Assembly: GCA_019358895.1 (NCBI GenBank)
Contig: JAHHIG010000008.1
Span: forward strand, 1-64,000
Source of the DNA: Tildeniella nuda ZEHNDER 1965/U140
Lineage (GTDB): Bacteria; Cyanobacteriota; Cyanobacteriia; Leptolyngbyales; Leptolyngbyaceae
Length of the DNA stretch: 64,000 bases
Reading direction: 5' to 3'
Part shown: positions 20,008 through 26,868 of the stretch, piece after piece
How the letters are laid out: the number at the start of each line of letters is the position of its first letter
Position numbering within the stretch: the first letter of the stretch is position 1
Position numbers and translations under genes: made by a program
The notes under the pieces: generated by a model
What the model saw: only the letters and a program-made list of their open reading frames with translations
What the model was told of the DNA's origin: nothing
Databases searched by the model: none

Positions 20008-20207
20008 GACTGAACTGTCGCTCTCTAAAGTGGACACATCTCTACTGTAGGGAGCGATCGCCCGCGTTGCGTCTGTCCTGCGGTAGTGGGAACCGCCTGC
20101 TAAAGGTAGGAAATACCGCTGCTCCCAATAGCCACAGCGTGGCTTCAAACGTAACTGTTATTCAAGCATGACACTGTTTCATCGATGATGCCCTCTAGAC
20201 AACAACC

Positions 20208-20612
20208 AACCAACGTAGGGTGGGCAAAGCCTTGCGTGCCCACGCACGATAACTCCCAGCAATGGGCACACACAAGCCCTTTTGCCCCTCCTACGACGAC
20301 TTTTGCAAACCAACCAACGTAGGGTGGGCAAAGCCTTGCGTACCCACGCACGATGACTCCCAGCAATGGGCACAGACAAGCCCTTTTGCTCATCCTACGA
20401 CGACTTTTGCAAACCAACCAACGTAGGGTGGTCAAAGCCTTGCGTGCCCACGCACGATGACTCCCAGCAATGGACACAGACAAGCCCTTTTGCTCATCCT
20501 ACGACGACTTTTGCAAACCAACCAAAGTACGGTGGGCAAAGCCTTGCAAGCCCACGCACGATGACCCACAGCAATGGGCACAGACAAGCCCTTTTGCTCA
20601 TCCTACGGCTAC
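20208..20612. repeat. Tandem repeat, four copies of exactly 104 bp
   Basis: The marker GTAGGGTGGG (variant GTACGGTGGG in the last copy) falls at 20215, 20319, 20423 and 20527, spacing 104 each time. Each unit contains complementary segments, for example GTGGGCAAAGCCTTGC next to GCCCACGC and TTGCTCATCC near the end. The copies differ by only a few bases, so the expansion is recent. The array ends about 75 bases before the ATPase start. Confidence 0.92.
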
Positions 20613-20685
20613 GTTGTTCGTGAACAAAATGCGATACCCTCTGAAGCATGAACGATGATAAGCGTAGTTCGTTCTAACGTTGGTC

Positions 20686-22002
20686 ATGGCTGAATCACTG
20701 CTTACCGAGTTTCAAACCGCATACCGCAACCTCGAACTGGGACCACTGCTCGATCAAAAAGATCTGGATCGGTTTCGGGTGGACTACAGCGGCAACATCC
20801 TTGCGGAACTGGAACAACTAATTGAGGATAGCGACACGGCTGACAGTAAGGTGATTTTTTCGGGGCACCGGGGCTGCGGTAAATCGACGCTGTTAGCGAC
20901 CCTGAGCCGGAGTCCTGTGCTGAACGATCGCTATGTAGTTGTGATGTTTTCCATCGCGGATACGGTCGAAAACTCTGATATTGACCATGTGAACATTCTG
21001 TTTGCGATCGCGGTGAAGCTCATGCGGTTTGCCGAAACAAGCCAGCCGCCGATTCCCATCTCTCAAGCGACTCAGGACGCGCTGTATCGGTGGTTTGCCG
21101 AACAAACTCAAACCGATGTGAAAGAAGTCAAAGGAGAGGCATCCTTCGGCTTGAATTTACTCAAACTGATTGAACTCAAACTGCTCACCAATGCGAGTAC
21201 ACGCAAAGAAATCAAGCAGAAGTTTGAACGCAACGCCTCGGAACTGGTGGGGCAACTGAATACGATCGCGGCAACCATTCGGACAGCGGCAAAGAAAGAG
21301 ACGATCGTCGTCATCATTGATGACCTGGATAAGCTCGACTTAGCGGTGGTCAAGCCCATCTTCAAAGACAACATCAAAGCACTGTGTCTACCGGGGTTTC
21401 ATATCATCTATACGATTCCAATCGCGGCACTGCGGGATAAGGAAATCCTGCCCATGATTCAGTCAGAGATGAACGATCGCATCATCCGGATGCCCGTGCT
21501 GAAGCTGCTGCCGAAAGAAGAGGTACACCAGCCCAATGCCCCACTCAACCCAGAGGTTTTAGACATCTTGTGTGCCATTCTGCATAAGCGCATTCCTGCC
21601 CATTTACTCGATCGACAGGTTGCTGAAAGGCTCGTTTTTTATAGCGGTGGCGTATTGCGAGAGCTGATGAGAATTGCGACCGGATGCTGTCGGCTGTGTC
21701 TGCTGCAAATTCGGCGGGAGAGCCGAGACAACACGGTCGAGCGTCAGGACATCACAATCAAGCCAGCGATTCTGGATGAAGCCGTCAACAACCTCCGCAA
21801 TGATTTTGCCTTGCAGTTGGGCAAAGCCGATTACGGTATTTTGCAAGCAGTCTACAACGAGTTAATGCCCGATGACCCCACTCAGAAAGAGTTTCTAGAC
21901 TTGTTGCATGGGCTGCACGTGCTGGAGTACCGCAACCGCAAAGCCTGGTATGACGTGCATCCGATCGTCGTTGAGTTGTTGAGCGATCGGGGGTTGATTT
22001 AA
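20686..22002 (+). CDS. P-loop ATPase, partner of the downstream TPR protein
   Basis: 438 residues from ATG 20686. After about 60 residues comes Walker A, GHRGCGKST, with Walker B VVIIDDLDKLD near residue 210, then arginine-containing segments and a winged-helix-like C-terminus (FLDLLHGLHVLEYRN, VHPIVVELL). The arrangement suggests an AAA/STAND-type ATPase of the ORC/MalT branch. From memory, close relatives recur in filamentous cyanobacteria beside a TPR protein like the one here; the function is undescribed to my knowledge. A 323-base repeat-rich gap separates the two genes on the same strand. Confidence 0.75.
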   Translation: MAESLLTEFQTAYRNLELGPLLDQKDLDRFRVDYSGNILAELEQLIEDSDTADSKVIFSGHRGCGKSTLLATLSRSPVLNDRYVVVMFSIADTVENSDIDHVNILFAIAVKLMRFAETSQPPIPISQATQDALYRWFAEQTQTDVKEVKGEASFGLNLLKLIELKLLTNASTRKEIKQKFERNASELVGQLNTIAATIRTAAKKETIVVIIDDLDKLDLAVVKPIFKDNIKALCLPGFHIIYTIPIAALRDKEILPMIQSEMNDRIIRMPVLKLLPKEEVHQPNAPLNPEVLDILCAILHKRIPAHLLDRQVAERLVFYSGGVLRELMRIATGCCRLCLLQIRRESRDNTVERQDITIKPAILDEAVNNLRNDFALQLGKADYGILQAVYNELMPDDPTQKEFLDLLHGLHVLEYRNRKAWYDVHPIVVELLSDRGLI

Positions 22003-22029
22003 ATGACAAAACGATCGCATGTGTATATC

Positions 22030-22310
22030 GAGCTTCGTTGGCAAATCTTACCGGGGGACTTCCCCCCGTGCCCCCGCTACGTGGGGTCCTAACTCCCCCA
22101 CACCCCTCGAACAAGAGTGTTGAGGTGGGTAGCAATAATTAATTTACACGATACGGCAGAACACAATCTCTATGCTCCTCTGCAATGCGAAGCGCTCTTC
22201 CACTTCTTACTAATAACCCCTTTTGGAGGGGGTTCGGGGGACGCAACCGTCCCCTGAATTCGGGGGGTTTGGGGGGCTGCCCCCCAAGGATCGGATACGT
22301 GGGACTTGTG
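22030..22310. repeat. G/C-rich palindromic intergenic repeat
   Basis: Between the ATPase and the TPR gene. It has self-complementary runs, for example CGGGGGACTTCCCCCCG near 22051 and GGGGGGCTGCCCCCC near 22271, plus several GGGGGTT/AACCCCC blocks. These would form strong hairpins in RNA and could terminate or attenuate readthrough between the two genes. No open frame of note. Confidence 0.65.
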
Positions 22311-22382
22311 TCTACACGGTAGCTTTTGAAAGAGGAGATCAGAGGGGAGCAAGCGTCTAGCAACGGCAAGGAAGGTCAATTC

Positions 22383-24125
22383 ATGTCCACCGCAAACCGG
22401 GTAGACCCCGATCAGCAAAACGAGGATGCTTACGAAGAGTTGATCGTCAGCATAGAAGCGGGTGAAGGCACCTTGAGCCTGCTGCTTGCTGTCTGCGATG
22501 ATAGCCGCCTGCGCGACGAGATTATCAGCCGCTACGAAGCCGAACTCGCTCCCGACATCCGCCACTATCATCTACCCATCCTTCGCGGCGAGCCCAGCCT
22601 CACACAGACGATTAGAAATAAGGTGCAGGAAGACGAGTATCTTCGCAATGGTGGTAGAGCAGTTGTCACCATCACCGGAGCTGAGCAACTCTTCTTCCTC
22701 AAGCTGGGCGAAGAGCGCTCCGAGCAGGAAATCTTCTTCGGCTACCTCCAGTGGACGCGGGAAGCACTGCGCGACTTTCACTTTCCCATTGTCCTCTGGG
22801 TGACACACCAGCTTTTGGCACAACTTGCCCGCCATGCCCCCGACTTCTGGAGCTGGCGTAAAGGGGTGTTTCGCTTCACCTCTAAAAAAACAGGTGCCGT
22901 ACGAAGCAGCGAGATTGAAGCAATCCGTCCTGTCCTAGAAGGGTTTGACTTACCCACTGACGATGATTATCTGCTGCCCCTGGAAGATTTGAAGGCGCTG
23001 ATTGCTCAGACGGAAGCACGACAGCCCAAAGACCCGCTGCTGGCAACGCTATATAGCCAGATGGGAGAAGTCTACTTTAATCGGTTGAAACGAGGCGAGG
23101 CACAGGATTATCAGCAGGAAGCGGCGCAGGCAGTTGACTACTTTCGCAGAGCCGCTGATTTGCAAACACAGCTTGGTCAGGAAACCGATCTGGCAAACAG
23201 CTTGAACTGGCTAGGTAGGCTTTATGACAACCAGGGACGTTACAGCGAAGCCGAACTACTGTACGTGCAGGCGCTGGAAATGAGAAAGCGACTGCTAGGT
23301 GAAGACCATTCCGATGTGGCAAACAGTCTTAACAATTTAGCACTACTTTATCGTACTCAGGGGCGATACAGCGAGGCAGAACCGCTGTCCCTGCAAGCAC
23401 TCGAAATGGACAAACATCTGGTGGGTGAGGAACATCCTGATGTGGCAATCGGTCTCAACAACCTAGCATCCCTCTATCAATCGCAGGGACGTATCAGTGA
23501 GGCAGAGCCGTTGTATGTGCAGGCGCTGGAAATGAGAAAGCGACTGCTAAGTGACGCTCATCCTGATGTGGCACAAAGTCTCAATAACTTAGCAGTGCTC
23601 TACACATCTCAGGGACGATATAGCGAAGCCGAACCGCTGCACATGCAAGCGCTAGCAACGAGGAAACGCCTGCTGGGTGAGGAACATCCCGATGTGGCAA
23701 CTGATCTTAACAACTTAGCAATGCTTTATACGTCGCAGGGACGTTACAGCGAAGCCGAACTCTTTTACGTGCAGGCGCTGGACATGGATAAACGCCTGCT
23801 AGGTGAAGACCATCCGGTTGTAGCAACTCGCCTCAACAACTTGGCGTATCTCTACACATTGCAGGGGCGGTATAGCGAAGCCGAACTCTTTTACGTGCAG
23901 GCGCTGGAGATGAGTAAACACCTGATGGGTGAAGACCATCCCAATGTGGCAACTAATCTCAACAACCTAGCAAAACTCTACACATCTCAGGAGCAATACA
24001 GCGAAGCCGAACCGCTTTACGTGCAGGCGCTAGACATTGTAGAGCGGCAACTAGGGGCAACCCATCCCAGTACAGTAAGAATTCGTGAAAACCTTGAGGG
24101 GTTGCGATCGATCATGCAGCAATAG
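22383..24125 (+). CDS. Pseudo-NTPase domain fused to kinesin-light-chain-type TPRs
   Basis: 580 residues from ATG 22383, which has an AAGGAAGG ribosome site. Residues 15-210 look like an NTPase fold without a Walker A: LLLAVCDDS sits where the P-loop would be, VVTITGAEQLFFL resembles strand 3, and FPIVLWVTHQLLAQL then DFWSWRKGVFRF follow. After a linker TPR come seven 42-residue repeats of the NNLALLY-QGRYSEAEPLY-QALEM-LLGEDHPD type. KLC-type TPRs bind peptides or proteins. The likely reading is a sensor or scaffold working with the upstream ATPase. Function unknown. Confidence 0.75.
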   Translation: MSTANRVDPDQQNEDAYEELIVSIEAGEGTLSLLLAVCDDSRLRDEIISRYEAELAPDIRHYHLPILRGEPSLTQTIRNKVQEDEYLRNGGRAVVTITGAEQLFFLKLGEERSEQEIFFGYLQWTREALRDFHFPIVLWVTHQLLAQLARHAPDFWSWRKGVFRFTSKKTGAVRSSEIEAIRPVLEGFDLPTDDDYLLPLEDLKALIAQTEARQPKDPLLATLYSQMGEVYFNRLKRGEAQDYQQEAAQAVDYFRRAADLQTQLGQETDLANSLNWLGRLYDNQGRYSEAELLYVQALEMRKRLLGEDHSDVANSLNNLALLYRTQGRYSEAEPLSLQALEMDKHLVGEEHPDVAIGLNNLASLYQSQGRISEAEPLYVQALEMRKRLLSDAHPDVAQSLNNLAVLYTSQGRYSEAEPLHMQALATRKRLLGEEHPDVATDLNNLAMLYTSQGRYSEAELFYVQALDMDKRLLGEDHPVVATRLNNLAYLYTLQGRYSEAELFYVQALEMSKHLMGEDHPNVATNLNNLAKLYTSQEQYSEAEPLYVQALDIVERQLGATHPSTVRIRENLEGLRSIMQQ

Positions 24126-24133
24126 ACCCAGCC

Positions 24134-24250
24134 TCCAGAAACCGGGTTTCTCTACGAAGTGCTGCGATCGCCCCTTCAAGATATATCCAAAAACCCGGTT
24201 TCTCTTATCCTCCCCAACGAGCCTTTGATCCTCGTCGATGAGACTTTATT
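24134..24250. repeat. Left direct repeat flanking the second TA pair
   Basis: About 117 bp repeated at 24976-25091 in the same orientation. It contains AGAAACCGGGTTTCTCT and an inverted AAACCCGGTTTCTCT about 55 bases on, then AACGAGCCTTT and CTCGTCGATGAGACTTTA, shared with the right copy. It begins nine bases after the TPR gene's stop. Confidence 0.85.
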
Positions 24251-24296
24251 ATATGAATAGAGCATGAATAGAGAAGCGCATTAGCAGGTTTAGTGT

Positions 24297-24551
24297 ATGC
24301 GATCGATCAAAGGCACTGTGCAAAACGGGGTGATTCACCCCACTGAACCCATCGAAGGACACGATGGGCAGCAGGTCGTGATTACGTTCGTGGAAGAGGA
24401 AACAGAAAGCCCTCAACCGATCGACGACTCATCCTGGAACGACTTGATGACATTTATTGATGCACATGCTGTCGATACCGGGATTGAAGACTTAGCCCAC
24501 CAGCATGACCACTACATTCATGGCACACCCAAGCGAGAACCGTATCCTTGA
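24297..24551 (+). CDS. Antitoxin of a PIN-toxin pair
   Basis: 84 residues. The N-terminal beta-strand pattern RSIKGTVQNGVIHPTEPIEG resembles small DUF104-type antitoxins; the C-terminus HQHDHYIHGTPKR matches the end of the decayed antitoxin at 56.0 kb (INHDHYLYGAPK), so the two pairs are related. The stop overlaps the toxin start in TTGA. It should neutralise the toxin and repress its own promoter; no operator is evident by eye. Confidence 0.75.
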   Translation: MRSIKGTVQNGVIHPTEPIEGHDGQQVVITFVEEETESPQPIDDSSWNDLMTFIDAHAVDTGIEDLAHQHDHYIHGTPKREPYP

Positions 24552-24955
24552 AGCGAATCTTTGTTGATGCTGTTGCCTGGATTGCGTTGCTAAACAGCCG
24601 AGATTCGTTGCATCAAACCGCGAAGCAACTCATGATGAGCTTTCAACAACAAAACGTCTCTCTGGTGACAACCGAGTTTGTACTGCTGGAAGTTGCTGAT
24701 GCCTTATCAAGTCCCGCGAGTCGCGAAGTGACTGTTGCATACGTTAAGCGCCTTCGAGTTCTTAACAGATTAGAAATCATTCCTGTTAGTCAAACGCTAC
24801 TCTTTGAAGGCTGGACACTCTACAGCCAACGCCCTGATAAAGAGTGGGGACTCACCGATTGCATTAGTTTTGTCGTCATGTCGCAGCAGCAGCTTACTCA
24901 GGCATTCACGTCCGATCGCCACTTTAAGCAGGCAGGGTTTGCCAACTTGCTGTAG
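24548..24955 (+). CDS. PIN-domain toxin, intact
   Basis: 135 residues, TTG start inside the antitoxin stop. The four acidic positions are D7 (FVDAVAWIALL), E43 or E48 in the TTEFVLLEV segment, D104 (LTDCISF) and D123 (TSDRHF). It aligns without gaps to residue 122 with the toxin at 56.1 kb; that protein has a 14-residue insertion exactly at the D123 codon. Predicted magnesium-dependent RNase. The pair lies between 117-bp direct repeats. Confidence 0.85.
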   Translation: MKRIFVDAVAWIALLNSRDSLHQTAKQLMMSFQQQNVSLVTTEFVLLEVADALSSPASREVTVAYVKRLRVLNRLEIIPVSQTLLFEGWTLYSQRPDKEWGLTDCISFVVMSQQQLTQAFTSDRHFKQAGFANLL

Positions 24956-24975: not shown

Positions 24976-25091
24976 TCCAGAAATCGGGTTTCTCCACGAA
25001 GTGATGCGATCGACCCTCCAAGTTGCGTCCAGAAACCCGGTTTCTTTGATTCTCGCCAACGAGCCTTTCATCCTCGTCGATGAGACTTTAC
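24976..25091. repeat. Right direct repeat flanking the second TA pair
   Basis: Second copy of 24134-24250, same orientation, with about 80-85% identity by eye. It begins 21 bases after the toxin stop, the same spacing seen at the first TA pair, and leads into another 21-bp array, as the first pair's right repeat also does. Confidence 0.85.
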
Positions 25092-25104
25092 TACTCGCGC
25101 ACGA

Positions 25105-25440
25105 ACCTTAGAGTATCGTCGTCCATGCTCAGAGTATCGTCGTCCATGCTCAGAGTATCGTCGTCCATGCTCAGAGTATCGTGCGTGAACCTCAGAACAT
25201 CATCATCCATGCTCAGAGTATCGTCATCCATGCTCAGAGTATCGTCGTCCATGCTCAGAGTATCGTGCGTGAACCTCAGAGTATCGTGCGTGAACCTCAG
25301 AGTATCGTCGTCCATGCTCAGAGTATCGTCGTCCATGCTCAGAACATCATCGACGAACCTCCGGAGCATCACGCGTGAACCTCAGAGCATCACCCACCAA
25401 CCTCGGAGCATCGCACACGAACCTCAGAGTATCAGGCGCA
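25105..25440. repeat. 21-bp tandem repeat array (array 3)
   Basis: About sixteen units of 21 bases, consensus CTCAGAGTATCGTCGTCCATG, with the last third of the unit switching between CGTCCATG and GCGTGAAC types. It is unrelated in sequence to arrays 1 and 2 but has the same period. All frames are open through much of it, giving meaningless repetitive peptides. Confidence 0.9.
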
Positions 25441-25490
25441 ACCCTTCGATCGCCCTTATCGATACAAGAGGCTCAGTGCTCGAGAGTGAT

Positions 25491-26369: not shown

Positions 26370-26636
26370 ATGAATTTTTATACCGTTGTTTTGAGACAGA
26401 GTGCCGGGTATTGGGTTTCGTTGTGCCTGGAAAATGGCATTGTTGGTCAAGGCATAACCCAGGACGCAGCGATCGAAAAGCTGCAAGCGGCGATTGAATC
26501 GTTGCAAGCGGTTGATGAAGCTGAAGTCAGCGTGCCTCAGTCACCCGTTGCAATCAATGAACTGCATGAATTTCTGACTATAGAGGCAAAGGAACCAACG
26601 TCAGAGGTTTATGAATTCAGGGCAGTGTATGCCTAA
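26370..26636 (+). CDS. hicB: HicB-family antitoxin
   Basis: 88 residues with the HicB partial RNase H-like fold: GYWVSLCLENGIVGQGITQDAAIEKLQAAIESL corresponds to the usual ExxGyxaxxPelpGcxsqGxT-EAlxNlxEAI pattern (quoted as a pattern, not a sequence run). The hicA start lies inside its last codons. HicB binds HicA and usually represses the operon. The order hicB-hicA is one of the two common ones. Confidence 0.8.
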   Translation: MNFYTVVLRQSAGYWVSLCLENGIVGQGITQDAAIEKLQAAIESLQAVDEAEVSVPQSPVAINELHEFLTIEAKEPTSEVYEFRAVYA

Positions 26637-26868
26637 AAATATTCCCTCTCTCAAACCGAAGCAGTTAATCAAACTCTTGGAACAGGGAGGTTGCAGCTTT
26701 TATCGAGAAGGGAAAGGAGATCATTGCTTGTATAAACGTACTGCTGGCGACACGCTTCGGGTAGTACCAATCGATATGGGAGCAAGAGAAATGTCGCCTG
26801 CTTACGTTTTGCGCATCTTTAGGCAATTTAGCTTCACAGATGCGGAAATAGAAACGCTTCTGGGGTAA
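26629..26868 (+). CDS. hicA: HicA-family mRNA interferase toxin
   Basis: 79 residues from ATG 26629, overlapping the hicB end by eight bases; a frame open from 26611 is less likely. The dsRBD-like HicA pattern is clear: LKPKQLIKLLEQGGCSFYRE, then the catalytic-type histidine in GKGDHCLYKR, then TLRVVPIDMG and LRIFRQFSF. The usual GSHHHF motif is GDHCLYKR here, keeping one His. Looks intact. Confidence 0.82.
   Translation: MPKNIPSLKPKQLIKLLEQGGCSFYREGKGDHCLYKRTAGDTLRVVPIDMGAREMSPAYVLRIFRQFSFTDAEIETLLG

Follow-up and report, generated by a model that had tools for sequence, protein, structure and literature searches.

The gene pair considered here recalls the nSTAND2 two-gene operons, in which an intact STAND protein is encoded together with an eroded STAND fused to variable modules, GT4 or HEPN being the most common, and for which a toroidal hetero-multimer has been proposed (Kaur et al. 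2021, PMC8195603). In the iSTAND/iSTAND2 MoxR-vWA ternary systems, an inactive STAND is the proposed sensor and is driven by an active ATPase (PMC7159879, PMC8195603), while the BrxB/BrxF iSTAND of BREX is described as a compact inactive STAND/ORC-Cdc6 domain in a defence complex (PMC12839542). Related accounts deal with repeat conservation in fungal NLRs (PMC4986451) and with STAND sensors diversified by diversity-generating retroelements (PMC10907252). The present work concerns two neighbouring genes in a stretch of 64,000 nucleotides from the cyanobacterium Tildeniella nuda ZEHNDER 1965/U140 (contig JAHHIG010000008.1, positions 1 to 64,000), referred to as the window. One encodes a P-loop ATPase and the other a protein, here called the partner, in which an N-terminal domain without Walker A motif is joined to a TPR array. 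Our favoured explanation, to which we give a probability of roughly 0.55, is that the pair constitutes a single hetero-oligomeric ATP-driven switch split over two polypeptides, where the pseudo-ATPase would be the adaptor and the repeats the sensor.

The first gene had been called an intact P-loop ATPase in an earlier reading made without database searches (the sequence-only reading), and both Walker motifs are indeed present in its 438-aa product (Table 1). Across 20 aligned family members the Walker A residues G60, H61, G63, G65, K66, S67 and T68 are invariant, as is D215 of Walker B, with D212 nearly so; further motifs are a sensor-like YTIP at residue 242, SGGVLREL at 320 and a C-terminal WYDVHP at 421. 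The protein comprises N-terminal helices, an NTPase core, a helical region and a C-terminal winged-helix-like end. Its AlphaFold2 model (pLDDT 87.1, pTM 0.85) is matched best by the ORC/Cdc6 structure 7jgr_G (Z 17.3), followed by the archaeal ATPase 2qen (Z 16.5 over 307 residues), NRC4 (15.1), CED-4 (14.7) and SSO1545 (2fna, 14.2). The alignments to 2qen, NRC4, CED-4 and 2fna span residues 14-438 and include a P-loop core and then helical and winged-helix regions, as in STAND proteins; judged from this predicted model, the ATPase is STAND/ORC-like over nearly its whole length. The C-terminal repeats typical of STAND proteins are absent from the polypeptide, which closes with the winged-helix-like part at residue 438, and are carried by the partner instead. 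Among solved structures, sequence comparison finds mostly short matches near the P-loop of unrelated ATPases, besides some longer but weak matches (best E 8.6e-5). KAP_NTPase (PF07693) is the sole Pfam family over its own cut-off (27.1 bits vs 20, profile positions 4-165 of 293); NACHT (17.9 vs 26.7), NB-ARC (14.7 vs 23.5), nSTAND6 (13 vs 27.7 bits), AAA_16 and others fall below theirs. Many KAP P-loop NTPases carry transmembrane segments inserted in the P-loop domain; the highest 19-residue hydropathy in this ATPase is 1.48 and does not suggest such a segment, as judged from hydropathy only and with no dedicated predictor.

The partner combines a predicted pseudo-AAA+ domain with a repeat array. 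Above the Pfam cut-offs it matches TPR and TPR-like repeats alone: TPR_12 has an E-value of 3.3e-100, and TPR_10 is found in seven stretches, the number of kinesin-light-chain (KLC) TPRs given by the sequence-only reading. Unit starts at residues 246, 288, 330, 372, 414, 456, 498 and 540 nevertheless give eight units, of which the first has diverged and the last lacks one residue. Residues 1-220 have no Pfam match at E <= 1. For the N-terminal 268 aa AlphaFold2 predicts a AAA+ fold (pLDDT 89.7, pTM 0.87): all 50 rows listed by VIA-align 2 are AAA+ proteins (Z 10.0-12.0), the best being TnsC 7ufi (Z 12.0, 3.9 A, 156 residues), NSF D2 (up to 11.0) and ORC (up to 10.4), and the AAA+ alpha/beta core is present in the model. 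A Walker A pattern is found in none of 62 aligned partner-type N-termini (59 partners and 3 solo proteins), where the P-loop position is occupied by Cys and then mostly by Asp, Asn or Ser. The same 62 members share a signature made up of C38 (61 members), G99 (59), R126 (59), D154 (59) and W158 (60). On the strength of the predicted structure, the domain is a pseudo-AAA+ family for which Pfam has no model, and the idea of a NTPase-like N-terminus devoid of Walker A holds; structure prediction of the TPR protein, which might have gone against the pseudo-NTPase claim, returned a AAA+ fold and so did not refute it. Both AlphaFold2 models were built from alignments of the window proteins with sequences from related loci, thinned at 92% identity to 40 of 81 partners and 30 of 76 ATPases, two truncated ATPases then being removed.

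Table 1. Features of the gene pair, in positions of the window
Feature	Position	Strand	Basis
STAND/ORC-Cdc6-like P-loop ATPase (predicted fold), 438 aa	20686..22002	+	Open reading frame (ATG at 20686, stop at 22002), motifs, KAP_NTPase, AlphaFold2, structural matches
Walker A GHRGCGKST, ATPase residues 60-68	20863..20889	+	
Walker B VVIIDDLDKLD, ATPase residues 208-218	21307..21339	+	
Intergenic stretch, 380 nt, repeat-rich	22003..22382	.	Relatives' spacing; repeats elsewhere in genome
Partner, 580 aa: predicted pseudo-AAA+ N-terminus and KLC-type TPR array	22383..24125	+	Open reading frame (ATG at 22383), Pfam, AlphaFold2, structural matches
Predicted pseudo-AAA+ domain without Walker A, partner residues ~1-222	22383..23048	+	AlphaFold2, structural matches, conservation in 62 members
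KLC-type TPR array, eight 42-aa units	23118..24122	+	Pfam, 126-nt direct repeats, unit starts

The two genes are usually retained side by side. Among 58 related genomes, 29 of 31 strong partner matches and 29 of 31 strong ATPase matches are adjacent and on the same strand, a count that leaves out eleven ATPase rows (second gene pieces or weak matches), one of which, G052:C10, sits ~1.1 kb from a weak partner match counted as unpaired. In the public loci (the best 80 of 250 relatives, three of them repeating loci of the 58-genome set) the ATPase lies directly upstream of the partner in 75 cases; in the other five an intact adjacent ATPase is missing, with a remnant kept at L204 and L223, a nearby contig start at L157 and no ATPase at L151 and L161. 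A survey of gene neighbourhoods had been set beforehand as a possible refutation of the pairing, and in this strong clade the genes are seldom apart. The wider family is less strict: 60 of 74 ATPase genes in the fetched regions have a partner next to them, and just 19 of 48 weak partner matches in the 58 genomes lie beside a listed ATPase. The former count was made by hand; it excludes two fragment matches (L100, L101), treats L096 as paired where an antisense open reading frame (ORF) overlies the partner, and draws on a fetched set that took in 40 of 78 weak ATPase regions. Apart from the solitary ATPases discussed below, the 14 unpaired genes include three at contig ends (L099, L105, L109) and a broken one (L101). 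The window genome contains five pairs in all, with four further ATPase paralogues each preceding a partner-like protein. Spacing is tight, with a median of 0 nt in the fetched regions, while in the public set 53 of 81 loci show an overlap of 11 nt. Over the 72 pairs kept once short or weakly scoring pairs and public loci were excluded, ATPase and partner distances are correlated (Mantel r 0.87, with 0 of 999 permutations as high). The listed public records, within the best 80 of 250 relatives, are all cyanobacterial but one metagenome-assembled genome labelled Gracilibacteria; that contig, at L152 (Candidatus Gracilibacteria), bears a typical cyanobacterial pair and is probably misbinned.

Relatives of the partner differ in what follows the pseudo-AAA+ domain. 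Of 41 partner-domain proteins scanned (38 partners and 3 solo), 35 match TPR_12 and 15 match nSTAND1, and another partner of the window genome, 1883 aa long, has 20 WD40 stretches. A Calothrix plasmid carries, in this order, an ATPase (434 aa), an ATPase-TIR fusion (697 aa, TIR_2 E 1.5e-33) and a partner of 1300 aa with two pseudo-AAA+ domains and nSTAND1. Among 152 ATPase and 146 partner ORFs, no other locus had two ATPases and no other partner two such domains. When 386 cyanobacterial genomes were searched with the TIR-ATPase, one more locus of this type appeared (51% identity), likewise combining two ATPases, TIR and two pseudo-domains. It is one of 20 long-class loci chosen by hand from that search, 19 of which hold a pair, with gaps of up to ~0.8 kb. 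The remaining 19 loci have one ATPase each, and in 18 of them a one-pseudo-domain partner lies within ~0.8 kb; two of these 18 partner ORFs are short, at 158 and 160 aa. No other observation hints as strongly at one-to-one contact as this joint doubling of ATPases and pseudo-domains, though it comes from one lineage. Two further relatives are recorded here in their own right. An apparent fused N-terminal domain on the ATPase G056:C54 (open frame 1072) was dropped, as the locus reads as a 437-aa ORF with stops upstream, and at L013:3125-5803 (G000:C35:177124-179802) a solo 892-aa protein has a related pseudo-AAA+ N-terminus with no ATPase found alongside.

The usual side-by-side retention of relatives suggests that the two proteins work together as a single sensing machine, comparable to those of bacterial immunity and signalling. 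In such a switch the STAND/ORC-Cdc6-like ATPase would presumably bind and hydrolyse ATP, and the pseudo-AAA+ subunit, without the usual ATP-binding loop, would pack beside it like the inactive subunits in ORC-type rings. The TPR array on the latter could recognise a ligand whose binding would alter the nucleotide state of the ATPase and its assembly; once assembled, the complex would set off an output. Some relatives display an output or a second switch, in the form of TIR on an ATPase or of nSTAND1 fused to the partner. As no effector is recognised in the window pair, its output would probably be a protein that the TPRs recruit. The physical complex, its stoichiometry, the sensing of a ligand and a signalling or immune role are inferences; what we observe are the genes and motifs, the predicted folds, the pairing, the correlated divergence and the domain make-up of relatives. 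A broader proposal, which we put forward tentatively and regard as somewhat short of even odds, is that of a cyanobacterial "split" NLR family. A sensorless STAND/ORC-type ATPase would pair one-to-one with a pseudo-AAA+ adaptor bearing interchangeable TPR, WD40 or nSTAND1 modules as sensors or second switches, effectors such as TIR could sit on the ATPase, and activation would occur by pairing of active and inactive AAA+ subunits and not by homo-oligomerisation.

A number of observations weigh against the two-polypeptide switch. Ten ATPase genes (L106, L112, L115, L117, L118, L119, L124, L127, L133 and L143) lack a partner domain within the stretch fetched, six-frame check included, although at L119 the contig ends 0.6 kb downstream. 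The weak partner matches without a listed ATPase alongside number 29 of 48, and seven genomes with such matches have no ATPase match. These solitary ATPases and the many unpaired partner-like proteins imply that the parts can also occur apart. The correlation of distances shows co-inheritance, not binding, because it includes shared species history, and only for 50 of 72 pairs do the three closest partners include the one that goes with the closest ATPase. The two-ATPase loci belong to one lineage, as the 51% identity of their TIR-ATPases indicates. On the structural side, the partner N-terminus also retrieves AAA+ proteins in Foldseek (best E 3.3e-5), yet the query TM-scores lie at only 0.30-0.38; the match therefore covers the AAA+ core and not the entire partner model. 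R159, a possible arginine finger, is present in 39 of 47 short but in 1 of 15 long partner-type proteins, and was dropped as a general finger for its near-absence from the latter. By sequence the partner finds no AAA+ protein among solved structures, its weak matches lying mostly at the TPR end (best E 0.0017), and profile-profile comparison of the ATPase and partner families stays short of significance (E 0.11 and 0.22). With no link between the families at profile level, the "dead homologue" of the sequence-only reading stands as a shared predicted fold and not as homology in sequence. Its observation of an ATPase gene followed by a partner gene is confirmed, and its interpretation partly supported.

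It is possible, at a little under an even chance, that the pair is a split NLR acting as an intracellular immune receptor, which would sense phage or another invader and lead to cell death or dormancy. The TIR, nSTAND1 and WD40 domains of relatives point this way, as does an Acaryochloris plasmid copy that lies between two tyrosine recombinase genes and near a NACHT gene and HicAB. The presence of several paralogues per genome also favours immunity, and so does the distribution of the ATPase, found in 0 of 6 genomes below 3.5 Mb vs 43 of 52 larger ones. The described kin systems are assigned to conflict (PMC7159879, PMC8195603). The window partner has two distant plasmid matches, in the Calothrix and Acaryochloris plasmids, and one match in a viral contig; for the window ATPase there is neither a plasmid nor a phage match, which counts against the idea. 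At L225 (IMGVR_UViG_3300035684_000001) a partner N-terminus lies near the end of a 188-kb viral-classed contig, with no ATPase in the stretch examined. PADLOC yields only TPR, TIR or weak P-loop matches, and the four window neighbours scanned are EcsC, SBP_bac_5, a PIN gene and a small ORF without match. Near relatives of the pair also often share one chromosomal site in Nostocales, where at least two of four marker genes, which we take to be ndhC, ndhK, rubredoxin and ycf48, lie upstream in 25 of 81 loci; away from contig ends, partner length at this site ranges from 439 to 866 aa. Hypervariable TPRs were considered as a sign of an immune receptor and rejected: over 373 pairs of close relatives the best-match unit identity is 0.860, against a mean of 0.875 for the N-termini, so the matched TPR units and the partner N-terminus change at about the same rate. 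Compared with Stenomitos ULC18, the window partner shows 64-81% identity in the TPR units and 85% in the N-terminus, but we do not build on this difference. The defence or signalling role advanced by the sequence-only reading is accordingly drawn from relatives (TIR-ATPase, nSTAND1 partners and the plasmid copy near NACHT) and not from the window pair. Defence is plausible in the TIR/nSTAND1/plasmid branch. The case is weaker in the window branch, which lacks an effector and which, in many Nostocales, occupies a stable chromosomal site without hypervariable repeats.

That same chromosomal site, the unremarkable TPR evolution and the lack of a recognised effector would also fit a housekeeping or stress signalling switch, or a dedicated chaperone or remodelling machine, inherited vertically in filamentous cyanobacteria and binding a host protein through its TPRs. 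The absence of a clear third gene is in line with this. Over 51 loci, nine protein families were common to at least four groups, six of them reflecting Nostocales synteny and the other three being ABC-transporter-like, membrane sensor-like and a small protein, and among these loci none was clearly tied to the pair across genera. We find such a role less likely: the families are multi-copy, not every member of a given genus or family has them, and both this and the TIR/nSTAND1 relatives would be unusual for it. Least probable by a wide step is a KAP-family NTPase beside an unrelated gene, with a AAA+ resemblance due to a common alpha/beta arrangement and an adjacency due to plain operon conservation, for which speak the KAP_NTPase match, a relative annotated "KAP family NTPase", the dissimilar sequences of ATPase and partner and the low Foldseek TM-scores, and against which stand the uniformly AAA+ structural rows for the partner, the ATPases and pseudo-domains doubled in step and the correlated divergence of the pairs.

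The spacing in the window departs from that of its relatives, three of which have 0, -20 and -1 nt between touching or overlapping genes, vs 380 nt here. Segments 179-294 and 69-125 of these 380 nt are found again at five further sites of the genome. Because parts of it recur elsewhere and the relatives' genes touch or overlap, the stretch looks like a late insertion and probably is one. Other repeats occur nearby. Three direct intergenic copies with 104-nt spacing lie just upstream of the ATPase gene (20204-20615), and a 118-nt intergenic repeat, in two copies 86% identical (24134-24251 and 24976-25093), flanks the PIN-domain gene and the small ORF preceding it (24297-24955). A long tandem array of a 21-nt unit (25080-25450) is open in both directions. 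Two small overlapping ORFs at 26370-26868 resemble a HicB-HicA toxin-antitoxin pair.

If the two-polypeptide switch is correct, a recurrent and often multi-copy module of larger-genome cyanobacteria would become interpretable as a switch gene followed by a sensor-adaptor gene, and the known pairing of active and inactive STAND proteins would be extended to TPR, WD40 and nSTAND1 architectures. The loci with two ATPases and two pseudo-domains provide a direct way to ask whether inactive AAA+ subunits set stoichiometry. The predicted pseudo-AAA+ family is now defined, and its signature residues C, G, R, D and W are open to mutation.

How, then, does the pair compare with known systems? Literature searches, confined to one open library without supplements, gave no description of a TPR/nSTAND1/WD40 pair. 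Like the nSTAND2 operons, the window has an active and an eroded gene of STAND type, as predicted, next to each other; the partners here bear TPR, nSTAND1 or WD40, whereas GT4 or HEPN prevail in the nSTAND2 systems. Neither of these was found by Pfam on the window partner, nor on 41 relatives among the 25 of 171 families listed. The nSTAND2 model gives no Pfam match at E <= 1 for either window protein; PF20702 is silent in the window genome and likewise in 14 control genomes, and membership of nSTAND2 is therefore not claimed. With the iSTAND/iSTAND2 systems the pair shares an inactive STAND-type module as proposed sensor beside an active ATPase. These differ in having MoxR and vWA genes, none of which, and no BREX protein, is among the four window neighbours scanned. 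The ATPase family is joined to both at L251:469-4609, where a MoxR-like AAA+ gene, a CoxE-type vWA gene and a 674-aa member of the ATPase family with a ~240-aa N-terminal extension stand in a row with no partner; this could be a ternary-type system whose third part is an active STAND. BrxB/BrxF have other neighbours and no TPR array, unlike the window pair. ORC/Cdc6 complexes supply the best structural match of the ATPase and combine active and inactive AAA+ subunits in one ring, and differ in having no TPR sensor. NLR/STAND receptors resemble the pair in their use of repeats as sensor and in the ATPase model itself, which aligns to NRC4 and CED-4 from residues 17-22 to 436-438; here, however, switch and sensor would be on separate polypeptides, with the sensor joined to a predicted pseudo-AAA+ domain. 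Taken together, and without a claim to membership, the pair is akin to the described iSTAND/nSTAND2 conflict systems and appears as a variant of that kind.

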